From Gammaproteobacteria bacterium 42_54_T18 (lineage in GTDB: Bacteria > Pseudomonadota > Gammaproteobacteria > Pseudomonadales > Ketobacteraceae): a DNA stretch of 64,000 bases. Positions 38,492 to 53,590 of the stretch are shown here, in pieces. The position numbers and the translations under genes are program-made. The stretch covers positions 62,001 through 126,000 of the forward strand of contig MAAL01000182.1 of assembly GCA_002163245.1 (NCBI GenBank), given 5' to 3'. Every line of letters starts with the position of its first letter. The first letter of the stretch is position 1. The notes beneath the pieces were generated by a model. It saw only the letters and a list, made by a program, of their open reading frames with translations. It did no database searches and was not told where the DNA came from.

Positions 38492-38636
38492 GATCTATAA
38501 AAACTGGACTACAGGGAACAAGACACAAAGACGCGAACAATATCTTTTTAAGGAAAGCGCATTAAGAGTAAAAAAGGAATATTATTTGAAGTACAGATGA
38601 GGTATTCAAGATCCAGAGAAAAGCATAAAGAAAAAG

Positions 38637-38713
38637 TGGCGGAGCGGACGGGACTCGAACCCGCGACCACCGGCGTGACAGGCCGGTATTCTAACCAACT
38701 GAACTACCGCTCC
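38637..38713 (-). tRNA. tRNA-Asp (GTC), copy 1
   Basis: A 77-base cloverleaf on the minus strand with encoded CCA: acceptor GGAGCGG/CCGCTCC, D arm with TAGTTCAGTTGGTTAGA, anticodon loop CCTGTCACG giving GTC, and T arm GTTCGAGTC. It lies 25 bases downstream of tRNA-Val(TAC) and is transcribed with it. The mature sequence is identical to copy 2 at 40313-40389. Confidence 0.98.
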
Positions 38714-38738
38714 ACTTTTACTTCTTTCGCTCTTCTTC

Positions 38739-38814
38739 TGGTGGGTGGTACAGGGTTCGAACCTGTGACCCTCGCCTTGTAAGGGCGATGCTCTCCCAAC
38801 TGAGCTAACCACCC
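38739..38814 (-). tRNA. tRNA-Val (TAC), copy 1
   Basis: A 76-base cloverleaf on the minus strand with encoded CCA: acceptor GGGTGGT, D arm AGCTCAGTTGGGAGAGC, anticodon loop CTTACAA giving TAC, and T arm GGTTCGAAC. It is the first gene of the Val-Asp operon, preceded by a strong promoter at 38829-38856. Confidence 0.98.
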
Positions 38815-38828
38815 GAGAAGAGCTGCGT

Positions 38829-38856
38829 ATTCTACGGATTTTTTTCGTTGTGTCAA
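38829..38856 (-). promoter_or_regulatory. Sigma-70 promoter of tRNA operon copy 1
   Basis: On the minus strand TTGACA (38851-38856) and TAGAAT (38829-38834) are separated by 16 bases, ending 14 bases before tRNA-Val. The -35 is a perfect consensus. The same hexamers and spacing occur in front of copy 2. Confidence 0.85.
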
Positions 38857-39093
38857 ACAGTTAGCAACGTTTTTTTAATTTTTTATCTGCCGAGAAAATA
38901 TCGCATCCCAACTTCCACACCACCCTTATTGCTTTCTGCCATAGCGCCAATTCCTATTATTAACACGCTCCATTACACCCACTCACTTCCACCTTCCAAG
39001 GCAGCCAGCCACTTCCTTTAAAAAACACCCTTTGATGGCTACACTTTATACAATCCAAACGATCCACATCGCACAAATGGAAGCCACACATCA

Positions 39094-40200: not shown

Positions 40201-40312
40201 TGCTTATCAATATCTGAGTAGACACACGAAATCAACGAGAGTAAATATACTTAATTGGCTTTTAGGATTTCGGAATTGAATCATGCAGGACGCATATAAA
40301 ACAATGTACAAG

Positions 40313-40389
40313 TGGCGGAGCGGACGGGACTCGAACCCGCGACCACCGGCGTGACAGGCCGGTATTCTAACCAACTGAACTACCGCTCC
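40313..40389 (-). tRNA. tRNA-Asp (GTC), copy 2
   Basis: Same 77-base sequence and anticodon GTC as copy 1. It is 18 bases downstream of tRNA-Val copy 2 on the minus strand. The spacer between the two tRNAs differs in length and sequence from copy 1. Confidence 0.98.
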
Positions 40390-40407
40390 ACTTGTGCATT
40401 TTCTTCA

Positions 40408-40483
40408 TGGTGGGTGGTACAGGGTTCGAACCTGTGACCCTCGCCTTGTAAGGGCGATGCTCTCCCAACTGAGCTAACCACCC
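40408..40483 (-). tRNA. tRNA-Val (TAC), copy 2
   Basis: Same 76-base sequence and anticodon TAC as copy 1. The ~22 bases upstream (AGAAGAGCTGCGTATTCTAC in plus orientation) are shared with copy 1, including the -10 hexamer. Confidence 0.98.
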
Positions 40484-40497
40484 CAGAAGAGCTGCGT

Positions 40498-40525
40498 ATT
40501 CTACGGTTTTCTTACTCACTGTCAA
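40498..40525 (-). promoter_or_regulatory. Sigma-70 promoter of tRNA operon copy 2
   Basis: TTGACA (40520-40525) and TAGAAT (40498-40503) on the minus strand with a 16-base spacer. The spacer differs from copy 1 in its 5' half, so the duplication is not recent or the promoters have diverged. Confidence 0.85.
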
Positions 40526-40541
40526 ACACTAAATCATTTTT

Positions 40542-40733
40542 TTATTTCTGCGCCATCAACTGATCGATTTTGGCTTTCGCCTCGTCCATTGTATAGGTGC
40601 CTGATTCCAGAGATCCATCGGGGTGAGACACCAAATAGTGATGTATAACAAACCCATAGCTCTCTGGGTTTATCTCCCCCTCTTCCAATATCACGTAACC
40701 TTTGTCCCCATAGGGGTAACCGTTTGCAATCAT
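40542..40733 (-). CDS. Small hypothetical protein, 63 residues
   Basis: From the ATG at 40733 the product is MIANGYPYGDKGYVILEEGEINPESYGFVIHHYLVSHPDGSLES... followed by an amphipathic helix (MDEAKAKIDQLMAQK). A longer frame would add 26 Leu/Arg-rich residues and overlap the region next to the terminator, which is unlikely. I do not recognise a family. The Tyr/Gly-rich strands and helix look like a folded small domain. It precedes the tRNA operon on the same strand and ends 17 bases before the -35 box of copy 2. Confidence 0.55.
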   Translation of the reverse strand: MIANGYPYGDKGYVILEEGEINPESYGFVIHHYLVSHPDGSLESGTYTMDEAKAKIDQLMAQK

Positions 40734-42024: not shown

Positions 42025-42630
42025 TTAGCACTTTCCCTTTAAAACCAATGAGAGTGACTTTTCGGCTAAGGCAGATATATCTAATGCTCCACCCGGCTTG
42101 TACCAGAAATTAGACCAACCTAATGCTCCAGTAATAAAACGACGCAATATAAAGGTATCAACATCTTCTTCGATTAACCCTGCCTCCTTGGCATCATCGA
42201 AGACATTCAGCCACATTTGTTCATAAACCTCGCGTAATTCCAAAATTTCTTGCTGACTTTCCGGTTTCAAGCTGCGCCATTCATAAATAAGTACCGCCAT
42301 GGCTTCACCGGTTTCGCCATTAACGGATTGAAGCTCTGACTTCATCAATGCCAATACTTTTCCGCGAATGTCTTTAGCGTTCTTAAGCTCTTGTTCCATT
42401 CTTTCGGTATTAAAACGAATCACTTCGATCATCACATTCCGCAAAATTTCTTCTTTGGTTTTAAAATGATGAAAAATACTACCCGACTGCATACCAACCG
42501 CCTGAGCCAGATCCCTTACCGTGGCCCGTTCAAACCCCTTTTTCTGAAATAAATGCGCTGCTGCGGCAAGGATCCTCCCCCTAGGGGTGTCTTCCATTCC
42601 AGCCAGTAAACTGTTCGCTTTTGTACCCAT
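42025..42630 (-). CDS. atuR: TetR-family repressor of terpene utilisation, AtuR-like
   Basis: A 201-residue TetR regulator divergent from atuA, the position of AtuR in Pseudomonas. The ATG at 42630 is preferred over a TTG seven codons earlier. The DNA-binding part is RGRILAAAAHLFQKKGFERATVRDLAQAVGMQSGSIFHHFKTKEEIL. In P. aeruginosa AtuR represses the atu operon by binding two inverted repeats between atuR and atuA. Two inverted repeats are present here in the same interval (42670-42698 and 42727-42744). Assignment rests on position, operators and domain type, not on alignment. Confidence 0.8.
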   Translation of the reverse strand: MGTKANSLLAGMEDTPRGRILAAAAHLFQKKGFERATVRDLAQAVGMQSGSIFHHFKTKEEILRNVMIEVIRFNTERMEQELKNAKDIRGKVLALMKSELQSVNGETGEAMAVLIYEWRSLKPESQQEILELREVYEQMWLNVFDDAKEAGLIEEDVDTFILRRFITGALGWSNFWYKPGGALDISALAEKSLSLVLKGKC

Positions 42631-42669
42631 AATGCCCGTAACCACCTTCAATCCACCTTAATTCGTCGT

Positions 42670-42698
42670 AAGTTTATCAGAATTCCCCTGATAAACTT
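42670..42698. promoter_or_regulatory. Candidate AtuR operator 1
   Basis: Perfect 11-bp arms AAGTTTATCAG and CTGATAAACTT around a 7-base spacer, 40 bases from the atuR start and in the atuR-atuA interval. It may overlap the atuR promoter. Its sequence differs from operator 2. Confidence 0.6.
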
Positions 42699-42726
42699 TT
42701 AAAAAAACAGAATCATAGCTTTACAA

Positions 42727-42744
42727 ACCAAGCGCTTGCTTGGT
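42727..42744. promoter_or_regulatory. Candidate AtuR operator 2
   Basis: ACCAAGC and GCTTGGT arms with a 4-base GCTT centre. This form is typical of operators bound by TetR repressors of acyl-CoA catabolism. It lies 122 bases before the atuA start. Confidence 0.65.
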
Positions 42745-42865
42745 AGCTTTATAGGCCTAGCTTAAACCAAACAACACTGATGGGCTAGTCATAATTTGGC
42801 GCGGTGTATACCTTGAGTAAATTGAGTGTATATGTAAGTAAGAATGAGAGATAAGTAGAAGACCT

Positions 42866-44683
42866 ATGAATCAAACATCATCAACAAAAAGCGCTATTCG
42901 CATTGGATGCGCTTCTGCATTTTGGGGTGATACCGAAACAGCGGCACAACAATTGGTAACTCAGGCTGACATTGATTACCTGGTTTTTGACTACCTGGCT
43001 GAAGTCACCATGTCGATTATGGCTGGGGCTAGAATGAAAAACCCCGACGCAGGATTTGCCACTGATTTTGTAACCCATGTAATGGCACCCCTTCTTCAGG
43101 ATATTGCTAAGAAAAAAATTAAAGTGATCAGCAATGCTGGTGGGGTAAATCCAATCGCATGCGGAAAGGCTATTCAAAAGCTAGTTGATGCTGCAGGGTT
43201 AAACCTATCCGTAGCCGTCGTCACAGGTGATGACTTACTGGAAAATCAATCCTCAGTACAGCACCCAGTTACAGAAATGTTCGATGGCTCTCCACTCCCT
43301 TCTACACTGATCAGCATGAATGCCTATTTGGGAGCACCCGGTATTTTAAACGCCCTAGAAGTGGGGGCAGACATTGTGATCACTGGCCGAGTAGTAGACA
43401 GCGCCGTTGTTCTGGCTCCACTAATGTATGAATTCGGCTGGTCAACGACAGATTACGATAAACTAGCACAAGGCAGCCTGGCGGGGCATATTATAGAATG
43501 CGGTGCTCAGTGTACTGGCGGAAACTTCACAGATTGGGAATCAGTGCCTGACTTTCACAACATGGGTTTTCCTATCATTGAGTGTTTTAGCGACGGCAGT
43601 TTTATTACCACAAAACCGGAAAACACCGGTGGGTTAGTCAGCACCGCCACCGTCGCAGAGCAGCTTGTTTATGAAATTGGCGACCCAAGAGCTTACTACC
43701 TACCTGACGTCATTTGTGACTTCACTGGTGTCACATTAGAACAAAAAGCACCAAATCAAGTATTGGTCAGCGGCGCCAAAGGCCTCCCACCCACAGACAC
43801 ATACAAAGTTTCTGCTACCTACCCCGACGGATTCCGTATCACCGGTAGTTTTATGATGGGTGGAATTAATGCGAAGAAAAAAGCCGAGGTTGTTAGCACC
43901 GCAATACTTAAAAAAGTCAGCGGCCTGTTTGAGCAACGCAATATCGCACCCTTCACTGAAGTATCCGTAGACATTCTTGGGACAGAAACAACTTACGGGA
44001 AGAATGCCAGCCCGCTCAATACACGCGAAGTCATCGTTAAAATTGCAGCGACTCATGCTGATAAAAAAGCCCTGGTTCTATTTTCAAAAGAAATCGCCCA
44101 AGCCAGCACAAGCATGGCCCCAGGCTTAACAGGACTAATTGGTGGGCGGCCTAAAGTATCTCCCGTAATCCGACTATTTTCTTTTTTACAATCCAAAAAA
44201 GATCTTGGCGTTTTTGTTCAATATGAGAACAAAACACGCTCTACTACCATTGATTCATCAAATAACTTCGACCTCCGAGCAATAGAACCTCAACGACCTT
44301 TAAACACCGCAACACCAGCGACGGTTCAAACGGTACCCTTGATTAAATTAGCCTATGCTAGAAGTGGTGACAAAGGTAATCACAGTAACATCGGCGTCAT
44401 TGCTCGCCACCCAAGTTTTTTACCCGCAATTGCAGCGGCATTAACCGAAAGTAATGTTGCCAATTACATGCAACACGTATTAGACGAAGAACACAGCACT
44501 GTCACTCGCTGGTTCTTACCTGGGATTCACGCAATGAACTTTCTATTAGAAAATGCATTAGGGGGTGGCGGAATTGCCAGCTTAAGAAGCGACCCACAAG
44601 GTAAAGCATTCGCCCAGCAATTATTAGAATTCCCAGTTCCAATATCTCAAACCATTGCCGATCAATTAACAATAGGAAATTAA
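42866..44683 (+). CDS. atuA: Acyclic terpene utilisation protein AtuA
   Basis: A 605-residue protein of the AtuA (DUF1446) family, required for growth on citronellol and geraniol in Pseudomonas, though its reaction is not known. The N-terminal ~450 residues contain the family core ([79 protein letters not shown]). The C-terminal ~110 residues carry the second conserved module ([25 protein letters not shown]). AGAAG precedes the ATG. It is the first gene of the atu operon and starts 4 bases before atuB. Confidence 0.95.
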
Positions 44684-44687
44684 CTGT

Positions 44688-45560
44688 ATGGGATATTCAT
44701 CCGTACTACGCCCTGACATTTTTAATGACCATAACATGGTAGTTACTGGCGGAGGCAGCGGCATTGGTCGGTGTTCTGCTCATGAGCTTGCCGCTCTTGG
44801 AGCACATGTTGTCATCATTGGACGTAAGCCAGAAAAATTAAAAACCGTTGTTGCAGAAATCATCGAGGATGGTGGTTCTGCAAGCTATTACACCTGCGAC
44901 ATTCGCGATGAAGACAAAGTGCGAGAAACGGTTAGCACCATTATAAAAGAGCACGGTCCAATTCACGGCCTCGTCAATAATGCTGGCGGGCAATATCCTG
45001 CGCCTTTGGCTGCAATCAATAAAAAAGGATGGGATGCCGTTATTGCCACCAATTTAACCGGTGGCTTTTTAATGGCTAGAGAAGTATTCACCCAATGTAT
45101 GAACACCCGAGGCGGCTCCATCGTTAATATTGTTGCCGACATGTGGGGCGGGATGCCTGGAATGGGACATTCAGGTGCTGCTCGAGCAGGCATGGTTAAC
45201 TTGACACAAACCGCTGCCGTTGAATGGGGGCCTTGTGGTGTCAGAGTTAACGCCGTTGCTCCAGGCTGGATTATGTCCAGCGGATTAGATACCTATGATG
45301 AATTCACCAAACAAACCATTAAAGGGTTAAAACACCACGTACCACTACAGAGATTGGCAACAGAAGCAGAAGTAAGCTCTGTTATTAGTTTCTTACTCTG
45401 TGACGGCTCTGCATTCATCAATGGGGACACCATAAAAATTGATGGAGGTGCACCGCTAGGTGGCTCCAACTTCCCTCTTCCCAAAACCAAACCATCCAAA
45501 ATGTATAACGGCTTTCACCGTTACTCCATACCTGAAGTCCTTAAAGATGATTTCGAATAA
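44688..45560 (+). CDS. atuB: Short-chain dehydrogenase/reductase AtuB
   Basis: A 290-residue SDR with the nucleotide site TGGGSGIGR near the N-terminus, NNAGG and a VNAVAPGWI segment. The usual YxxxK catalytic pair is replaced by S162-G-A-A-R166, within GMGHSGAARAGMVNLTQ. This pattern recalls the 2,4-dienoyl-CoA reductase branch (HAGxAKAG), which uses a different Tyr, though here even the Lys is Arg. AtuB is thought to act on an unsaturated acyl-CoA or terpenoid intermediate. It is tightly packed between atuA (4 bases) and atuC (15 bases). Confidence 0.9.
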   Translation: MGYSSVLRPDIFNDHNMVVTGGGSGIGRCSAHELAALGAHVVIIGRKPEKLKTVVAEIIEDGGSASYYTCDIRDEDKVRETVSTIIKEHGPIHGLVNNAGGQYPAPLAAINKKGWDAVIATNLTGGFLMAREVFTQCMNTRGGSIVNIVADMWGGMPGMGHSGAARAGMVNLTQTAAVEWGPCGVRVNAVAPGWIMSSGLDTYDEFTKQTIKGLKHHVPLQRLATEAEVSSVISFLLCDGSAFINGDTIKIDGGAPLGGSNFPLPKTKPSKMYNGFHRYSIPEVLKDDFE

Positions 45561-45575
45561 AAAACGGATACCACT

Positions 45576-47192
45576 ATGCCTGTTATAGAATCGACAATCG
45601 ATACCAACTCTGAGCAATTCAAAGCTAGCCAAACGTTTATGTTAGGGCTTATTGAAGAATTTAGGGGCATTGAACAAAAAGTTATCGCTCGAGCAGAAAA
45701 AGCTATTCCAAAATTTGAAAAGCGCGGCCAAATACTACCGCGCAAAAGAATTGAAAGTTTACTTGATCCAGGGTCCCCATTTCTTGAGTTATTACCCCTT
45801 GCAGGATACAAAATGCACGATGATAAAGACGGCAGCGAAGCTGGCGGTGGTCTTATCTCGGGCATTGGTTATGTACAGGGAATTCGTTGTCTAATTAACG
45901 CCAGCAACAGTGCAATTAAAGGTGGAACCATTTCACCTGCTGGCTTAAGAAAAAGCTTGCGACTACAAGAAATTGCCCTCGAAAATAAGCTACCTATTAT
46001 CACTCTCGCCGAAAGTGGCGGTGCGAACTTAAATCATGCAGGCGAGATTTTTGTTGAAGGTGCCAGAGCTTTTGCCAATCAAGCTCGAATGTCTGCTGCT
46101 GGCATTCCTCAAATTACCGTTGTTCATGGTAACGCTACTGCCGGTGGCGCCTACCAGCCAGGTTTATCGGATTACATTATTGTTGTGCGCAACAAAACAA
46201 AAATGTTTCTTGCTGGCCCACCACTATTAAAAGCAGCAACAGGGGAGATTGCGACAGATGAAGAACTCGGCGGCGCAGAGCTTCATGCTCAAGAGGCAGG
46301 AACTGCAGAGTATCTCGCAGAAAATGACAACGATGCCATACGTATTGCCCGTGAAATTATGGGAAAAATCCCATGGAATGATCGAATGCCTGAACGAAAA
46401 GATAAGGCATTTAACGAACCCAAATACTCAACGGAAGAATTGTTAGGGGTTATCCCAACGGACCTAAAAACACCTTACGATTGCCGAGAAATCATTGCAC
46501 GTATTGCTGATGACTCCGACTTTCTAGATTTTAAAGAAAACTATGACAGCGGCACTGTCTGCGGCTGGTTAAAAATTGAGGGCTATTCTGCAGGTTTTAT
46601 TGGCAACAACGGTCCAATCACAACAGCAGGCGCCACAAAAGCAGCGCAATTTATCCAGCTATGCGACCAAAGCCAAACACCATTGTTCTTTTTTCATAAC
46701 ACCACAGGTTTCTTGGTGGGGACTGAACCTGAGAAAAACGGCATCATCAAACACGGATCAAAAATGATTCAGGCCGTAGCCAATGCGCGCGTACCAAAAT
46801 TCACCATTGTTGTCGGTGGATCCTATGGAGCAGGTAACTACGCGATGTGTGGTCGCGGTTTAGATCCACGCTTCATCTTCGCATGGCCAAACAACAAAAC
46901 CGCTGTTATGGGTGGCGCTCAAGCAGGAAAAGTACTGCGCATTGTCGCGGAGCAAAAGCAACGCAGCATGGGTATGGAGCCTAACGAAGAGGTTCTGGAT
47001 ATGTTAGAGCAAAGCACGGCCATTAACTTGGACAGGCAGTCTACTGCATTGTATGGCACCGCTCAGCTTTGGGACGACGGTATTATCGACCCAAGAGAAA
47101 CACGCAATATCCTTGCGTATTTAATGAGTACTGTACGCGATGCAGAACAGAGACAATTACAACCAAACTCCTTTGGAGTTGCCCGACTTTGA
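45576..47192 (+). CDS. atuC: Geranyl-CoA carboxylase beta subunit AtuC
   Basis: A 538-residue carboxyltransferase of the acyl-CoA carboxylase beta family (relative of methylcrotonyl-CoA carboxylase). It transfers CO2 from carboxybiotin on AtuF to cis-geranyl-CoA. Visible landmarks are GGGLISGIGYVQGIRCLINASNSAIKGGTISPAG, the oxyanion region AESGGANLNHAGEIF, the VHGNATAGGAYQPGLSDY stretch, and the C-terminal GGSYGAGNYAMCGRGLDPRFIFAWPNNKTAVMGGAQAG. Placement in the atu operon separates it from the leucine (Liu) carboxylase, which would sit with liu genes. The gap to atuD is 88 bases. Confidence 0.93.
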   Translation: MPVIESTIDTNSEQFKASQTFMLGLIEEFRGIEQKVIARAEKAIPKFEKRGQILPRKRIESLLDPGSPFLELLPLAGYKMHDDKDGSEAGGGLISGIGYVQGIRCLINASNSAIKGGTISPAGLRKSLRLQEIALENKLPIITLAESGGANLNHAGEIFVEGARAFANQARMSAAGIPQITVVHGNATAGGAYQPGLSDYIIVVRNKTKMFLAGPPLLKAATGEIATDEELGGAELHAQEAGTAEYLAENDNDAIRIAREIMGKIPWNDRMPERKDKAFNEPKYSTEELLGVIPTDLKTPYDCREIIARIADDSDFLDFKENYDSGTVCGWLKIEGYSAGFIGNNGPITTAGATKAAQFIQLCDQSQTPLFFFHNTTGFLVGTEPEKNGIIKHGSKMIQAVANARVPKFTIVVGGSYGAGNYAMCGRGLDPRFIFAWPNNKTAVMGGAQAGKVLRIVAEQKQRSMGMEPNEEVLDMLEQSTAINLDRQSTALYGTAQLWDDGIIDPRETRNILAYLMSTVRDAEQRQLQPNSFGVARL

Positions 47193-47233
47193 TCTCCCTA
47201 ACATCCGCATAGGCACTGTAATAAGTACACTAT

Positions 47234-47258
47234 AAATTTGACCACTTAAATTTGACCA
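47234..47258 (+). repeat. Short tandem repeat between atuC and atuD
   Basis: AAATTTGACCA occurs at 47234-47244 and 47248-47258 (14-base period), in the only sizeable gap within the atu operon. It may be chance or an internal regulatory site for atuD. Confidence 0.35.
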
Positions 47259-47280
47259 ATAGCATTGGGGAATAACCATC

Positions 47281-48450
47281 ATGATGTTTACACCAGAACA
47301 TGAAGAACTACGTCGCACAGTTCGCAATTTTGTAGAAAAAGAAATCAACCCTTATGTTCCTGAATGGGAAAAGAACGGCCCTTTCCCTGCTCATGAATTA
47401 TTTAAAAAAATGGGTGACCTGGGTTTACTTGGTGTTACCAAACCAGAACAATACGGCGGAATGAATCTCGATTACTCATATGGACTAGTGGTTGCAGAAG
47501 AATTAGGGAGCGCAAAATGCGGCGGTGTACCTTTGGCAATTGGTGTTCAAACAGACATGGCAACACCCGCATTGGCACGTTTTGGCAGTGAAGAGCTTTG
47601 TAAGCAGTTCTTAGCGCCATCCATTGCCGGTGACATGGTTGCAGCTATTGCCGTCAGCGAACCTGGTGCAGGTTCTGACGTTGCAGCGATTAAAACCCGC
47701 GCCGAAAAGCAAGGGGATGATTACGTCATCAATGGCACCAAAATGTGGATCACCAATTCAACACAAGCCGATTATTTCTGTTTGCTTGCCAATACCGGTG
47801 ATGGTCCAAAACATTCCAACAAATCCTTGATTGTTGTTCCCGCCGACGCTAAAGGAATAGAAGTATCAAAACCACTCGATAAAATTGGCATGCGCTCTTC
47901 TGATACTGCTCAGGTATTTTTTGACAATGTCAAAGTGCCTCAGAAAAACCTCATTGGTATGGAAGGCCAAGGGTTTATGATTCAAATGATGCAATTCCAA
48001 GAGGAACGTATGTGGGGTGCAGCAAATGCTGTAGGTGGTATGCAACTTGCTATTGAGAAAACGATTGAATACTGCCGCGAACGTGAAACATTTGGTCAAC
48101 CATTAATAAACAACCAGTCAATTCATTTTCGTTTAGCAGAGTTGCAAACTGAGCTTGAAGCCCTTAAATCTTTGGTATATCGCACTTGCGAATTATATAT
48201 CGGCAACGGCAACCCACAAAAAACCCTTGAGTTAGCATCAATGTGCAAACTCAAAGCTGGCCGCTTATTGCGCGAGGTTGCCGACTCATGTTTACAGTAT
48301 TGGGGGGGGATGGGTTACATGATGGACAACCCTGTTAGCCAAATGTACAGAGATGGACGCTTAGCCTCGATTGGTGGAGGTGCCGATGAAATAATGCTCG
48401 GTATCATCTGTAAAACTATGGACATTTTGCCTAGTAAAAAGAAAGGGTAA
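47281..48450 (+). CDS. atuD: Citronellyl-CoA dehydrogenase AtuD
   Basis: A 389-residue acyl-CoA dehydrogenase. Flavin and substrate motifs are present: VSEPGAGSDVAAIKTRAEK, MWITNSTQADYF, FGQPLINNQSIHFRLAELQTEL, and the C-terminal MYRDGRLASIGGGADEIM. The catalytic Glu of medium-chain enzymes (YEGT) is Gly366 here. A Glu (E242 in FQEERMW) sits at the helix-G position used by isovaleryl-CoA dehydrogenase-type enzymes, which suits a branched substrate. In the pathway it oxidises citronellyl-CoA to geranyl-CoA before carboxylation. atuE begins 5 bases after its stop. Confidence 0.92.
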   Translation: MMFTPEHEELRRTVRNFVEKEINPYVPEWEKNGPFPAHELFKKMGDLGLLGVTKPEQYGGMNLDYSYGLVVAEELGSAKCGGVPLAIGVQTDMATPALARFGSEELCKQFLAPSIAGDMVAAIAVSEPGAGSDVAAIKTRAEKQGDDYVINGTKMWITNSTQADYFCLLANTGDGPKHSNKSLIVVPADAKGIEVSKPLDKIGMRSSDTAQVFFDNVKVPQKNLIGMEGQGFMIQMMQFQEERMWGAANAVGGMQLAIEKTIEYCRERETFGQPLINNQSIHFRLAELQTELEALKSLVYRTCELYIGNGNPQKTLELASMCKLKAGRLLREVADSCLQYWGGMGYMMDNPVSQMYRDGRLASIGGGADEIMLGIICKTMDILPSKKKG

Positions 48451-48455
48451 GCACC

Positions 48456-49283
48456 ATGTCAGAAAACCAACTACCTCAAACAGACACTTTATTACTTGAG
48501 CAACGGGATCATGCGCTATTCATCACCTTAAATCGCCCAAAATGTCGAAACGCAATGAGCCTCACCATGGTCAACGAACTGATGGCCGTATTTGAAGCCA
48601 TCAAAGGCAATCTTGATATTCGAGCTGTTGTATTACGAGGCGCAGAAAATCATTTCTGCGCTGGGGGCGATATAAAAGATATGGCGGGTGCGCGAATGCA
48701 AATCCAACCGGCCATTGATGAAGGTAAAGCCAACCCTTTTACAGAACTTAATCGACAATTTGGTCGTATGATCACGCTAGCAAACCAAGCGCCACAAGTT
48801 GTTATTGCCGTACTTGAAGGTGCAGTATTAGGCGGTGGTTTTGGTTTAGCCTGTGTTTCCGACGTTGCTATCGCGAAACAGGATGCTCAATTCGGTTTAC
48901 CAGAAACTGGTCTCGGCATTATCCCTGCACAAATTGCTCCCTTTGTTGTTACTCGTGTAGGACTAACACAAGCGCGACGTTTGACCTTATTGGGGGCTCG
49001 TTTTAACGGTGATGAAGCTTACCGTTTAGGCATTGCTCATTATGTATGCGATACAAATGAAACCTTGGAACAACAACTTTCTGATGTGTTATCACAAGTT
49101 AAACGTTGTGCCCCATTGGCTAATCGAGCAACCAAAGAATTAATTCTTAATGTTGGTAATACTGACATGGAAGCCTTACTCGACCAAGCAGCTGCCGACT
49201 TTGCTGCTGCAGTGCAAAGCCCCGAAGGCTCAGAAGGCACCATGGCCTTTATCCAAAAACGTCTACCGACGTGGGCCAACTAA
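48456..49283 (+). CDS. atuE: Isohexenylglutaconyl-CoA hydratase AtuE
   Basis: A 275-residue crotonase-fold hydratase. It has the CoA/oxyanion segments ENHFCAGGDIKDMAGARM (oxyanion hole) and EGAVLGGGFGLACVSDVAIAKQDAQFGLPETGLGIIPAQIAPF, with the catalytic Glu pair expected in the latter block. It is expected to hydrate the isohexenylglutaconyl-CoA formed by AtuC/AtuF. The role is inferred from operon position, since the crotonase fold alone cannot specify substrate. It ends 49 bases before atuF. Confidence 0.9.
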   Translation: MSENQLPQTDTLLLEQRDHALFITLNRPKCRNAMSLTMVNELMAVFEAIKGNLDIRAVVLRGAENHFCAGGDIKDMAGARMQIQPAIDEGKANPFTELNRQFGRMITLANQAPQVVIAVLEGAVLGGGFGLACVSDVAIAKQDAQFGLPETGLGIIPAQIAPFVVTRVGLTQARRLTLLGARFNGDEAYRLGIAHYVCDTNETLEQQLSDVLSQVKRCAPLANRATKELILNVGNTDMEALLDQAAADFAAAVQSPEGSEGTMAFIQKRLPTWAN

Positions 49284-49332
49284 AAGCTGCCGTTTTAGAT
49301 AGAGGCAAAAACATTATTTAATGGAGATAAAA

Positions 49333-51336
49333 ATGGCAACATTTTCCAAAATCCTTATCGCTAACCGTGGCGAAATTGCAGTTAGAGTCATGCAAACAGC
49401 CCAACGCCTGGGTTATCGAACGGTTGCATTATACAGTGATGCGGATGCGAACGCTCGCCACGTACGTGTCGCTGACGAAGCGGTACATATCGGTTCATCA
49501 GTGGTTTCTGAGTCCTACCTTTGTGTTGATAAAATTTTAGCGGCAGCCGAGCTTACCGGAGCCGATGCGATTCACCCAGGTTATGGGTTTCTCTCAGAAA
49601 ATGCCGAATTTGCAGATATTTGCAAAACAAAGGGAATTACTTTTATTGGGCCTTCAAGTTCCGCCATCACATTGATGGGTTCCAAACGCCAATCAAAGAT
49701 TGAAATGCAGGACGCTGGTGTTCCTTGCATCCCTGGTTACCAAGGAGAAGACCAATCCATTGATTTTCTCGCAGCTCAAGCCAAAGAAATCGGTACTCCA
49801 TTAATGGTCAAAGCCTCTGCTGGTGGCGGCGGCCGGGGCATGCGTTTTGTTTCGGATTTTGAGGATATAGAACAAACGATAAAATCTGCCCGCAGTGAAG
49901 CTGAGAATGCTTTCGGTAGCGGAGAGTTGATTCTAGAGCGTGCAGTATTAAACCCTCGCCATGTAGAGATTCAAGTTTTCGGGGATTCACAAGGCAACAT
50001 TATTTATTTAGGAGAGAGAGATTGCTCTGTTCAGCGTCGCCACCAAAAAGTCGTTGAAGAAGCCCCCTCCCCTGCGGTAAACGAAGAACTACGGCAGCGC
50101 ATGGGAGAGGCCGCTGTGTTGGCCGCCAAATCCTGTAATTATGTTGGGGCTGGCACAGTTGAATTTTTGCTGGCTGATAATGGCGAATTTTATTTTCTAG
50201 AGATGAACACTCGCCTGCAAGTGGAGCACCCTGTCACTGAACTTATAACCGGTTTGGATTTGGTGGAATGGCAATTAGTAGTAGCGGCAGGACACCCCTT
50301 GCCGCTCACCCAAGAACAAGTCACCCTCACCGGTCACGCAATGGAAGTTCGCCTTTACGCCGAAGACCCAGCAAATCAATTTATGCCACAAACCGGCCCT
50401 GTATATCGATGGATAACACCGCTGGATCGCAACACCCACTCTGATGCACGTATCGATCATGGCATTCAGCAAGGTTGTGATGTCTCACCATTCTATGACC
50501 CAATGCTCGCAAAAATCATTGTTTGTGGAAAAGACCGTCAAGAAGCGATTCGAAAATTGCGTCGTGCTGTTGAAGATACCGTGCTATTTGGTGTTCATAC
50601 CAATAAATGGTTTTTACAAAACATTATTAGCCACCCTCACTTTATTGCAGGTGACGCGACGACTGCATTCATACAAGAGCAGTTTGCAAAAGACGAAAGC
50701 CTTTCACCCTATCAGCCCAGCACACAAGAATTAGCGTTAGCTGCCGCATTATTTCACCACCAGCCTGATGCATCAAGCACACAACAACGCGACCGTTTAA
50801 AGGGCTGGCACAGCTCAAATTCATTATCACGCCCTATTACATTTGCATTAGCAGATGACAATGCAAAGTTAGAACTATCGCCAACCGAAAACACTAACGA
50901 ATACAGTGTCGTCGGTATAGATGATGAAACCCATAATATTTCTATCATCGATACCAACAACGGTTTTGCGACATACGTATTTAACGGTGTGAAGCACAGC
51001 ACGGCTTATACCATTCAAGATGATACGGTTTATATCGACACTGGAAAGCATAGCTTCGGGCTAACAGAAATTACTCACCAACCTCCCGCTAGTTCCGACA
51101 GTGCTGGGTCAGGAAGAATTACCGCCCCGATGGACGGAGCAGTAATTGATATACTATGTAGTGAAGGGGAAGCAGTATCTATTGGACAAACCTTGGCGGT
51201 GGTAGAGGCCATGAAGATGGAACACCAGATCAAAGCAGACTGCGACGGTTTGATAGGCAACATTTCGGTGGCTATTGGCGATCAAGTGAAAATCCGCCAG
51301 CTATTGATTCAAATAGAAACGCCCACTGAAGACTAG
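49333..51336 (+). CDS. atuF: Geranyl-CoA carboxylase alpha (biotin) subunit AtuF
   Basis: A 667-residue biotin-dependent carboxylase subunit. I use the ATG at 49333 with an ideal GGAGAT site, rather than the ATG four codons earlier. It holds a biotin carboxylase part (KILIANRGEIAVRVMQTAQRLGY, ATP-grasp with KASAGGGGRGMRFV and EMNTRLQVEHPVTE, to ~residue 450), a linker, and a biotinyl domain with K628 in VVEAMKMEHQI. It charges biotin with bicarbonate and ATP and pairs with AtuC. A terminator follows at 51339-51362. Confidence 0.95.
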   Translation: MATFSKILIANRGEIAVRVMQTAQRLGYRTVALYSDADANARHVRVADEAVHIGSSVVSESYLCVDKILAAAELTGADAIHPGYGFLSENAEFADICKTKGITFIGPSSSAITLMGSKRQSKIEMQDAGVPCIPGYQGEDQSIDFLAAQAKEIGTPLMVKASAGGGGRGMRFVSDFEDIEQTIKSARSEAENAFGSGELILERAVLNPRHVEIQVFGDSQGNIIYLGERDCSVQRRHQKVVEEAPSPAVNEELRQRMGEAAVLAAKSCNYVGAGTVEFLLADNGEFYFLEMNTRLQVEHPVTELITGLDLVEWQLVVAAGHPLPLTQEQVTLTGHAMEVRLYAEDPANQFMPQTGPVYRWITPLDRNTHSDARIDHGIQQGCDVSPFYDPMLAKIIVCGKDRQEAIRKLRRAVEDTVLFGVHTNKWFLQNIISHPHFIAGDATTAFIQEQFAKDESLSPYQPSTQELALAAALFHHQPDASSTQQRDRLKGWHSSNSLSRPITFALADDNAKLELSPTENTNEYSVVGIDDETHNISIIDTNNGFATYVFNGVKHSTAYTIQDDTVYIDTGKHSFGLTEITHQPPASSDSAGSGRITAPMDGAVIDILCSEGEAVSIGQTLAVVEAMKMEHQIKADCDGLIGNISVAIGDQVKIRQLLIQIETPTED

Positions 51337-51338
51337 AG

Positions 51339-51362
51339 AATAAGGGCCTTTGTGCCCTTATT
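51339..51362 (+). terminator. Terminator after atuF
   Basis: AATAAGGGC and complement with a 6-base loop, starting 3 bases after the atuF stop, with a short T-run (TTT). It suggests that atuA-F is one transcript, with the synthetase gene downstream transcribed separately. Confidence 0.7.
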
Positions 51363-51699
51363 TCATACGAGTTTTTCCTACAACAACCTAGTAAGCCGTG
51401 CGATATCTACATTATGTATCTTTATTCAGTCCCTGAAGACATTTCTGACCGCTATTCACTTGCATGGCTGGCCACATATGGGTATGTTACACCTTGTAAA
51501 AATTTTGTAAAAAGTGGATAACAACGAAAACTCTGTTTCGTATAGCATTCGAACGGACCTGATCAAAAAGCAACCGCAAGCATTCAATTTACACTTAAAT
51601 GCGTTCTCGAGCCGCTAGGCACTCGTGCATTGCTTTACTCGTTCCACTCACAAATAATTTCTTTCAACCTGAACAATTTAGGATAGCCTTGGGGGTTCC
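51363..51699. other. Intergenic region before the acyl-CoA synthetase gene
   Basis: About 340 bases. It is long enough to hold an independent promoter for the synthetase gene. I saw no long inverted repeat like the two operators upstream of atuA and no coding frame with a ribosome site. Confidence 0.4.
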
Positions 51700-53538
51700 A
51701 TGAGCAGCAGTAATACAGACATGATTACGTGGGGTATGATGATGAAAAAAGTTCCTTCCATCGTGAAGGGGCTTCCGAGTATCGTCAAAGGATTAAAAAT
51801 TTCCAACATTTCCGATCCGACGCAACCATGTGGCCTAGGCTGGGCGTTTGAACAAGCCGCGCAACGTAACCCTAGAGGCTCAGCATTACTTTATGAAAAT
51901 GTTCGCTTCACCTATGATGAAGTCAACCAGTGGTCAAACCGCATTGCCCACCACCTGATTAGCCAAGGTATACAAAAAGGTGACGTGGTTGGTATTTTGA
52001 TTGAAAACCGTCCAGAGTTGCTAGTTAACGTATTAGCCGTCGCCAAAGTTGGCGCTGTCTGTGCGATGATTAATACCTCCCAAACCCATAAAGTCTTGAT
52101 CCACAGCTTTAACCTCGTCAAACCAAAAGCCGTTATCGTTGGTGAAGAGCTCACAACCATTTATGACGAAGTTCGCGCTGATATAAATATCGACGACAGC
52201 CAGACATTTTTTGTAGCGGATACCGATACTACAAAAGACCCCGGCACTGCACCAAAGGGGTATGTAAACCTTACTACCGAATCAGCTAGTAGCCCTACTC
52301 ACAATCCAGATACAACAAACAAGATCTACATGAACGATTCTTGTTTTTACATCTATACATCGGGAACTACAGGGTTACCAAAAGCAGGAATATTCAAACA
52401 CGGTCGCTGGATGAAATCATACGGTGGCTTTGGTATCACCTCGTTAAAGATGACACCTAAAGATGTCATGTACTCAACCCTACCGCTATACCATGCAACT
52501 GGACTTGTCGTTTGTTGGGGATCAGCTATTGCTGGGGCATCAGGTTTTGCCATTCGTCGTAAATTCTCTGCAAGTAACTTCTGGAAAGACACTCGAAAAT
52601 TTAATGCCACTGCGATTGGTTATGTAGGCGAGTTATGTCGTTATCTTATGGATCAACCAGAGAGGTCTGATGATTCTGACAACCCCGTTGTTAAAATGGT
52701 AGGTAATGGATTGCGCCCAGGCGTTTGGATGCCTTTTAAGCGTCGCTTTAACGTAAGCCACGTCTGTGAACTTTATGCTGCAAGTGATGGTAATATCGGT
52801 TTCACCAATATCTTTAACTTCGACAACACCGTTGGTTTCTCTCCAATCCCTTGGTCATTAGTACAATATGATAAAGAGAATGATAAGCCATATTATAATG
52901 CCGACGGTTTTATGAAAAAGGCAGAAAAAGGTGGCCAAGGTTTATTGCTTTCCAAAATCGATGATAAGTCACCTCTAGATGGTTACACCGACCCAGAAAA
53001 AACAAAAAAAGTTATCTTTCAGGATGTATTTGAAAAGGGCGACCGCTACTTTAACACTGGCGACCTATTAAGAGATATCGGATTTGGTCACGTTCAGTTT
53101 GTTGACCGTCTAGGTGATACTTATCGCTGGAAAGGTGAGAACGTATCCACTACCGAAGTGGAAAATCTGATGACTCGACACCCTCAAATTTCTGAGGCTG
53201 TTGCTTACGGTGTTGAAATACCAAACACCAATGGTCGTGCTGGCATGGCGTCAATAACACCTTCTGTTCCTGTTGAAGCATTAGACTTTAAAGATTTATT
53301 ATCTTTTGCTAAAAGTGAAATGCCTATCTATGCAGTACCCTTATTCCTTCGTGTAAAAGTGCAAATGGAAACAACAGGCACCTTTAAGTATCAAAAGACA
53401 AACCTTAAAGATGAAGCATTTGACCCAAGTAAAACAAGTGGTGAAGCTATTTACGCATGGTTACCAGGCACAGAGGAATATGTACCTGTTACTGATGAAA
53501 TACTAAGTAATATTAATAATGGTAAATATCGTTATTAA
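51700..53538 (+). CDS. atuH: Long-chain acyl-CoA synthetase, AtuH-like
   Basis: A 612-residue ANL-family ligase with the AMP-binding signature YIYTSGTTGLPKAG (residues 217-230). It also has the later NTGDLLRDIGFGHVQFVDRLGDTYRWKGENVSTTEVE block, which includes the hinge Asp and Arg. It resembles the FATP/very-long-chain synthetase branch, the type found as AtuH at the end of the Pseudomonas atu cluster. It would activate terpenoid or fatty acids with CoA. It is separated from atuF by a terminator and ~360 bases, so the symbol is tentative. Its start is the ATG at 51700. Confidence 0.85.
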   Translation: MSSSNTDMITWGMMMKKVPSIVKGLPSIVKGLKISNISDPTQPCGLGWAFEQAAQRNPRGSALLYENVRFTYDEVNQWSNRIAHHLISQGIQKGDVVGILIENRPELLVNVLAVAKVGAVCAMINTSQTHKVLIHSFNLVKPKAVIVGEELTTIYDEVRADINIDDSQTFFVADTDTTKDPGTAPKGYVNLTTESASSPTHNPDTTNKIYMNDSCFYIYTSGTTGLPKAGIFKHGRWMKSYGGFGITSLKMTPKDVMYSTLPLYHATGLVVCWGSAIAGASGFAIRRKFSASNFWKDTRKFNATAIGYVGELCRYLMDQPERSDDSDNPVVKMVGNGLRPGVWMPFKRRFNVSHVCELYAASDGNIGFTNIFNFDNTVGFSPIPWSLVQYDKENDKPYYNADGFMKKAEKGGQGLLLSKIDDKSPLDGYTDPEKTKKVIFQDVFEKGDRYFNTGDLLRDIGFGHVQFVDRLGDTYRWKGENVSTTEVENLMTRHPQISEAVAYGVEIPNTNGRAGMASITPSVPVEALDFKDLLSFAKSEMPIYAVPLFLRVKVQMETTGTFKYQKTNLKDEAFDPSKTSGEAIYAWLPGTEEYVPVTDEILSNINNGKYRY

Positions 53539-53557: not shown

Positions 53558-53590
53558 AAGGCCGATAGAATCATTCTATCGGCCTTTTTT
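53558..53590 (+). terminator. Terminator after acyl-CoA synthetase
   Basis: Fourteen-base arms (53558-53571 and 53573-53586) with a single-base centre, followed by a run of T. It clearly ends the synthetase transcript. Confidence 0.93.

Follow-up and report, generated by a model that had tools for sequence, protein, structure and literature searches.

The closest described systems for the use of acyclic terpenes are the atuRABCDEFGH clusters of Pseudomonas aeruginosa and Pseudomonas citronellolis. According to the available part of PMC9973270, the mapped binding site of AtuR consists of two 13-bp inverted repeats, AGCAAGCGCTTGG and CCAAGCGCTTGCT. In P. aeruginosa, FadD5/AtuH is reported to contribute minimally, if at all, on citronellate and geranate, FadD4 being almost solely responsible (PMC3667196, in part). 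Thauera linaloolentis 47Lol is described as having an active Atu pathway, with atu genes that do not form one compact operon and no clear atuB or atuG in the portion of the account available (PMC4847356). Here we analyse a 64,000-nucleotide stretch of the genome of Gammaproteobacteria bacterium 42_54_T18 (contig MAAL01000182.1, positions 62,001 to 126,000; hereafter the window), which carries an atu cluster at 42025-53538. The core of a pathway for citronellyl- or geranyl-type acids under AtuR control very probably lies in the window, with the other parts of that pathway scattered in the genome, some of them behind copies of the AtuR site. This reading is built on gene content, operators and a selectivity residue of the carboxylase, all read from the sequence, and on the fold of a predicted AtuA model; from these we infer which substrates this organism uses, how the genes are induced and what each enzyme catalyses.

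The eight open reading frames (ORFs) of the cluster are all intact at their annotated coordinates and belong to the expected families (Table 1). As in the P. aeruginosa and P. citronellolis systems, atuR is divergent, the order is ABCDEF, AtuC carries Gly162, an AtuE is present and the 13-bp AtuR site is identical; gene order was compared with Pseudomonadaceae genomes other than P. aeruginosa PAO1. The earlier note on this DNA had recognized the Pseudomonas-type order, and the ORFs, their families and the comparison of loci bear it out. The window differs from the Pseudomonas clusters by the lack of atuG in the operon, by a ligase of another subclade placed after a gap, by a single exact operator copy where Pseudomonas loci such as L156-L158 have an exact inverted pair, and by scattered genes behind operator copies. 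T. linaloolentis resembles it in not having all atu genes in one compact operon, but splits the core genes and adds a linalool isomerase and geoAB, whereas the core operon of the window is intact.

The sequence CCAAGCGCTTGCT occurs exactly at position 42728, inside the 18-bp palindrome ACCAAGCGCTTGCTTGGT, as one exact copy between atuR and atuA. The recognition helix of the window AtuR, GMQSGSIFHHF, is nearly identical to that of Pseudomonas AtuR, GIQSGSIFHHF. Genome-wide, the 13-mer has four exact copies, and 20 matches are found when up to one mismatch is allowed, against 2 for the reversed pattern. Besides the copy between atuR and atuA, exact copies lie about 65 bp before an AtuG-like short-chain dehydrogenase (SDR) gene on contig C6, 45 bp before an acyl-CoA dehydrogenase gene on contig C97 and, on contig C60, between a gene for a beta-keto acid cleavage enzyme (BKACE; PF05853) and a gene of the carboxymuconolactone-decarboxylase family. 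The start of the BKACE gene was placed at an inner Met because its longest ORF overlaps the operator site. The identical 18-mer is present at three of the four sites, those on C6 and C60 matching the atuA operator letter for letter; the number of 18-mer copies expected by chance in this genome is about 0.0002. The single cluster would thus extend to a small predicted AtuR regulon comprising the SDR, the acyl-CoA dehydrogenase and the BKACE.

Across the order, 56 of 293 genomes contain the 18-mer, with 92 occurrences in all, and none contains its reversed control. Neighbouring genes were surveyed at 63 sites in 72 loci, including 40 of the 69 sites outside the family, and a pathway-type gene was present within 450 bp in all 63 cases. 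These sites lie between atuR and atuA (31, plus 2 at one further divergon), atuR and atuB (3) or atuR and atuD (2), or at genes for an acyl-CoA dehydrogenase (18), an AtuG-like SDR (2), a BKACE (4) or a ligase (1), the dehydrogenase and ligase categories being broad families. In a separate site search one genome was listed twice (G015 is G001, with the same site coordinates), and the 59 site matches of that search are 57 distinct ones. All 22 loci of the Alcanivorax-like group carry the 13-mer between atuR and atuA. In Spongiibacter pelagi (G487) and G250 the atu operon itself includes an AtuG-like SDR gene, and such a gene stands behind an exact operator in Alcanivorax hongdengensis (L324); an acyl-CoA dehydrogenase gene ends the atu operon of G408 and of G298, and in Acinetobacter guerrae (L060) the acyl-CoA dehydrogenase gene that bears the 13-mer adjoins atuR. 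Separately, in four Pseudomonadaceae loci (L256-L258, L261) the 13-mer was seen inside GCCAAGCGCTTGCTTGGC, between an acyl-CoA ligase gene and a gene of 640 codons (DUF1302 in L257), a hint that a further Pseudomonas ligase has a link of AtuR type.

The carboxylase could be a geranyl-CoA carboxylase (GCC) or a methylcrotonyl-CoA carboxylase (MCC). The best PDB chain for AtuC is the GCC beta subunit 5IKL (881 bits), against 488 bits for the MCC chain 3U9R. A published rule places Gly162 in GCC where MCC has Phe191, together with a 3-residue insertion in MCC (PMC4673880, in part); the window AtuC keeps Gly162 and is missing the insertion, and two Alcanivorax-like loci (L053, L058) have Ala at this position. 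In a tree of 58 entries, from which matches below 85% coverage were excluded, the window AtuC and 5IKL belong to one clade of 40 members (support 0.83), from which MCC and the LiuB of this genome are separated (support 0.96). By score, residue and tree, the window AtuC is thus of the geranyl-CoA carboxylase type, and the candidate role of leucine-pathway carboxylase was ruled out; the PDB scores and the tree keep AtuC apart from MCC, a grouping that the earlier note had named as contrary to its reading. For AtuF, the best PDB matches are MCC alpha chains, with no GCC alpha chain among the matches listed, and its naming rests on its place in the cluster and on 54-59% identity to Pseudomonas AtuF. 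AtuE has as leading PDB matches 4K3W (332 bits) and 4ZU2, a putative isohexenylglutaconyl-CoA hydratase (321 bits), the next match scoring 116 bits.

The same genome contains two further AtuA-AtuF-AtuC clusters, on contigs C26 (L017:9831-18187) and C165 (L019:7289-17545; in the AtuC tree, L017 and L019 duplicate the C26 and C165 copies). Their AtuC and AtuF proteins are 57-59% identical to those of the window, they have Ser at position 162, and they come with dehydrogenases and hydratases of their own. The 14 other genomes of the family that were searched have one AtuA in 11 cases, none in two, and two partial matches in one fragmented genome. Because of these two GCC-like clusters, paralogues may divide substrates between them. 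The window operon might then serve another branched substrate, such as signals of the diffusible signal factor (DSF) type in quorum sensing or longer isoprenoid acids, instead of C10 terpenes. In Pseudomonas nitroreducens HS-18, atu-like genes dmgABCDEFGH, 79-91% similar to atu, are reported to take part in DSF degradation (PMC9973270, in part), and many of the relatives found here are Alcanivorax. Yet the window AtuC has kept Gly162, its place in the tree is with the structurally solved geranyl-CoA carboxylase, and both AtuE and the operator match the acyclic terpene system of Pseudomonas. We therefore regard a substrate other than C10 terpenes as rather unlikely.

In the pathway that we favour, AtuR would repress from the 18-bp palindrome until a pathway intermediate relieves repression. 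A ligase would form the CoA ester, AtuD would convert citronellyl-CoA to geranyl-CoA, AtuC/AtuF would carboxylate the beta-methyl group, AtuE would hydrate the carboxylated product and AtuA would release acetate; two rounds of beta-oxidation would then yield 3-methylcrotonyl-CoA for Liu enzymes. The earlier note had supposed that missing parts might be kept elsewhere and proposed a genome search for atuG and liu genes, and an AtuG-like gene and Liu-type genes were indeed found outside the cluster. Contig C60 carries LiuABCD-type genes: LiuB has an MCC as its best PDB match (898 bits), and LiuA-, LiuC- and LiuD-like genes and a 3-oxoacid CoA-transferase subunit gene adjoin it. A 3-hydroxy-3-methylglutaryl-CoA (HMG-CoA) lyase is encoded on contig C117 (PRK05692, 321 bits against a cut-off of 246). 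A Pseudomonas AtuG query retrieved a 57% identical relative on C6, the SDR behind the exact operator, and a 49% identical relative on contig C54, the third of the 77 matches scoring only 66 bits. Sequence comparison thus supports the view that missing pathway parts are kept elsewhere in the genome, several of them behind copies of the AtuR site.

Several observations weigh against this picture of a terpene pathway under AtuR. The C97 site has a 16-bp core and not the full 18-mer, and no copy of the 13-mer lies within the 20 kb surrounding the C54 relative of AtuG; the C6 SDR shares no more than 57% identity with Pseudomonas AtuG and may not be its orthologue. The reference genes of the survey include those first met at this genome's own sites. 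Specificity belongs to the longer palindrome alone, since several of the 13-mer sites viewed in other genomes fall at unrelated genes. The C26 and C165 clusters could share or take over the substrate. Finally, no AtuA was detected in the congener G003 (91% complete), yet the operator precedes its SDR gene all the same. This last case also suits an alternative in which there is no AtuR regulon and TetR proteins other than AtuR recognize the operator copies at the BKACE, SDR and acyl-CoA dehydrogenase genes. TetR paralogues do exist, one near the BKACE gene on C60 and one on C26 with a fairly similar recognition helix (GMKAGSIFYHF). However, the helix of the BKACE-adjacent TetR differs (GIAQPSFYTHF against GMQSGSIFHHF), no 13-mer was found in the 20 kb holding the C26 cluster, and the sites on C6 and C60 do not depart by a single letter from the atuA operator, so that we hold reading by other regulators to be distinctly unlikely. 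An ORF on C165, considered as a candidate TetR, had no NCBIfam match and was not used as such.

The layout of the cluster was compared across 69 named loci obtained by an AtuA scan, 22 of which form an Alcanivorax-like group (L039-L058, L066, L072). The earlier note had reported that atuG is missing and that a gap of about 360 bases follows atuF. Both observations stand: the gap is 363 bp, and because it contains no ORF of at least 100 amino acids, atuG is absent from the cluster. That these traits are unusual did not hold up. All 21 Alcanivorax-like loci that extend past atuF (L039 included; L041 is cut short) show the order R-ABCDEF-gap-ligase with no atuG, scored as at least 42% identity over at least 60% of the query, a threshold that a more distant SDR would escape. 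In Pseudomonas sp. UMAB-08 (L059) and P. viridiflava (L061), atuF is followed by neither atuG nor a counterpart of the window ligase. The layout is therefore ordinary for the lineage, of the Alcanivorax type; atuG does not directly follow atuF here, and since it is lacking in the 21 Alcanivorax-like loci and in L059 and L061, it is not required for an atu cluster.

A cluster without atuG could also be a decaying remnant, in a lineage that has lost atuG and a co-transcribed atuH and uses the cluster only for preformed terpenoid acids. AtuA and AtuF are less conserved in comparison with L039 (73-74%) than AtuB, AtuC and AtuD (90-92%), as decay might produce. But every ORF is intact, the layout is kept throughout the Alcanivorax-like loci, and an AtuG-like SDR stands behind an exact operator both on C6 and in A. 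hongdengensis; decay is a highly improbable explanation.

The earlier note took the gene after the gap for a detached atuH, but a tree separates it from Pseudomonas atuH. In a ligase tree (matches below 70% coverage or 40% identity excluded; the window protein appears twice and several ligases under two locus names), the protein of the window clusters with Pseudomonas ligases that are 65-72% identical to it (support 0.98) and not with the products of Pseudomonas atuH, to which it is 48-52% identical. Six neighbourhoods of the former ligases were viewed and contain no atu genes. Among 20 Pseudomonadaceae regions around a ligase homologue, 12 have an atuG-atuH pair, with atuF adjoining in 11 and one pair at a contig end, and the other 8 have the ligase without atu genes. 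The Alcanivorax and Alloalcanivorax clusters, alike in order and 13-mer, differ in that their ligases outside L039 belong to another subclade (53-56% identity to the window ligase). The position after atuF is thus filled by different ligase subclades, which fits the little contribution reported for atuH (PMC3667196, in part).

Of the terminator that the earlier note had placed after atuF, a hairpin is present (-14 kcal/mol, z -3.3), but its U-tract is poor and the terminator scan did not call it; the strong terminator lies downstream of the ligase gene. No sigma-70-like promoter was found on the + strand of the gap, and the operator 18-mer has no match there even at 6 mismatches; direct control of the ligase by AtuR, once considered, was dropped on this last account.

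For AtuA, a search with the single sequence found no PDB chain. A profile search retrieved 9ERQ/9EVF (the AtuA-family protein CmlA) with an E-value of 2.7e-12, and R175, D178, C212, Y269, E270 and K314 of AtuA align with identical letters in CmlA, as judged by eye in the profile alignment. We predicted a model of AtuA from an alignment of 53 sequences (mean pLDDT 93). Its only Foldseek match at E ≤0.001 was 9EVF, citramalate lyase with ADP and pyruvate (E 6e-21), and VIA-align superposed the two with Z 31.6 over 418 residues at 16% identity, the next row having Z 9.8. Matches of rank 2 and below cover only about residues 321-434 in VIA-align and were not used. Citramalate lyase frees acetate from HO-C(R)-CH2-COO-, and the reaction proposed for AtuA cleaves a bond of this type too. 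CmlA, of the AtuA family by its PDB name, is thus like AtuA in fold, bond type and released acetate, and differs in its low identity and in its substrate, which is small and free where that of AtuA would be a CoA thioester; the window AtuA also has a fused C-terminal PF23544 domain. The predicted model gives AtuA a citramalate lyase fold, and AtuA is likely an acetate-releasing lyase, an activity that the fold does not prove. Its reaction is given here as listed in PMC4847356, and PMC9973270 terms the lyase role speculated (both in part). No publication linking AtuA to citramalate was found in the literature searched.

The idea that AtuA is a general replacement for HMG-CoA lyase was only partly supported: 7 of the 10 genomes tested have an HMG-CoA lyase, S. 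pelagi included, and none scored above the cut-off in Marinoscillum, Desulfosporosinus and SURF_67, where AtuA lies beside carboxylase and hydratase genes. A short AtuA homologue was also observed as the last gene of a leucine-type liu operon in S. pelagi (L086/L389) and in G411 (L385), at a place where HMG-CoA lyase might be expected.

The BKACE encoded on C60 resembles the BKACE/DUF849 (Kce) proteins, matching PF05853 with 284 bits (cut-off 24.8) and having 2Y7D as its nearest solved relative by sequence (122 bits). It differs from them in scoring below the cut-off of every matched NCBIfam model (Kce, 3-oxoadipate and 3,5-dioxohexanoate; 196 against 382 bits for Kce), so its substrate is probably outside the named classes. 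A BKACE gene stands behind an exact operator in four genomes of three families: that of the window, its congener G001 (the genome of L039), G408 and G298. Of 16 chosen genomes searched with PF07287, just two gave no AtuA: G408 (a single contig, 100% complete) and G298 (99% complete). The atu clusters of both read R-B-C-D-E-F-dehydrogenase without atuA; in the other 12 genomes of the 16 every exact 18-mer was viewed and none is at a BKACE gene. Because no AtuA was found in G408 and G298, both with an operator-linked BKACE, this enzyme may serve a route independent of AtuA. In such a branch, cleavage of the HMG-CoA-lyase type would turn 3-hydroxy-3-isohexenylglutaryl-CoA into acetyl-CoA and free 7-methyl-3-oxo-6-octenoate, and the AtuR-controlled BKACE would convert the latter with acetyl-CoA to acetoacetate and 5-methyl-4-hexenoyl-CoA. 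G408 and G298 would use that route alone, and the organism of the window and its congener both routes. In G298 the gene facing BKACE across the operator encodes an acetoacetate-CoA ligase (829 bits against a cut-off of 521); activation of the acetoacetate would fall to this enzyme. Against this reading, the gene in this place is a peptidase gene in G408 and encodes the carboxymuconolactone-decarboxylase relative in the window's genome. The association between lack of AtuA and operator-linked BKACE reaches only p ~0.05, in a hand-made Fisher test on a chosen set, and AtuA is also present in two of the four genomes with operator-linked BKACE. In G240, of the same genus as G408, the cluster lacks atuA, a short AtuA relative is present elsewhere and the only exact 18-mer is at atu. 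Among the publications listed in the literature searched, none links BKACE to terpene degradation. We offer the AtuA-independent branch as a tentative proposal, possible but on the doubtful side.

Conservation along the cluster is uneven in comparison with its nearest relative, L039: AtuA and AtuF are 73-74% identical, AtuB, AtuC, AtuD and the ligase 89-92%, and AtuR and AtuE about 80%. Upstream of the cluster, a tRNA gene pair is duplicated with its flanks (38627-38874 and 40303-40543; 89-93% identity, 1.67 kb spacing); a response-regulator gene separates the two copies.

Table 1. Features of the atu cluster, with positions in the window.
Feature	Position	Strand	Family or basis
atuR, TetR-family repressor	42025-42651	-	PF00440/PF17932
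Predicted AtuR operator, ACCAAGCGCTTGCTTGGT with the 13-bp AtuR site CCAAGCGCTTGCT inside	42727-42744		Between atuR and atuA
atuA	42866-44683	+	PF07287 (500 bits, above cut-off) and PF23544
atuB, SDR	44688-45560	+	PF13561; 65-90% identity to same-position AtuB of Alcanivorax-like loci
atuC, geranyl-CoA carboxylase beta subunit (Gly162, no 3-residue insertion)	45576-47192	+	Carboxyltransferase; PDB score, residue, tree
atuD, citronellyl-CoA dehydrogenase-like	47281-48450	+	Acyl-CoA dehydrogenase, PF00441/02770/02771; 66-92% identity to same-position AtuD of Alcanivorax-like and Pseudomonas loci
atuE, crotonase family, isohexenylglutaconyl-CoA hydratase	48456-49283	+	PDB matches
atuF, geranyl-CoA carboxylase alpha subunit (biotin carboxylase and biotin carboxyl carrier protein domains, biotin motif AMKMEH)	49321-51336	+	PF00289/02786/02785/00364; 54-59% identity to Pseudomonas AtuF
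Hairpin 3' of atuF, weak U-tract	51340-51361	+	
Acyl-CoA ligase in atuH position	51700-53538	+	PRK08279 family (NF006134), 877 bits against cut-off 625
Strong intrinsic terminator 3' of ligase	53558-53586	+	13-bp stem then T-run

For the annotation of atu clusters, these results mean that the gene after atuF is not safely read as atuH, different ligase subclades occupying that place. The solved AtuA-family citramalate lyase gives AtuA a fold and a chemistry that can be tested, and where the rest of the atu operon stands without AtuA, the operator-linked BKACE is a candidate substitute for it.

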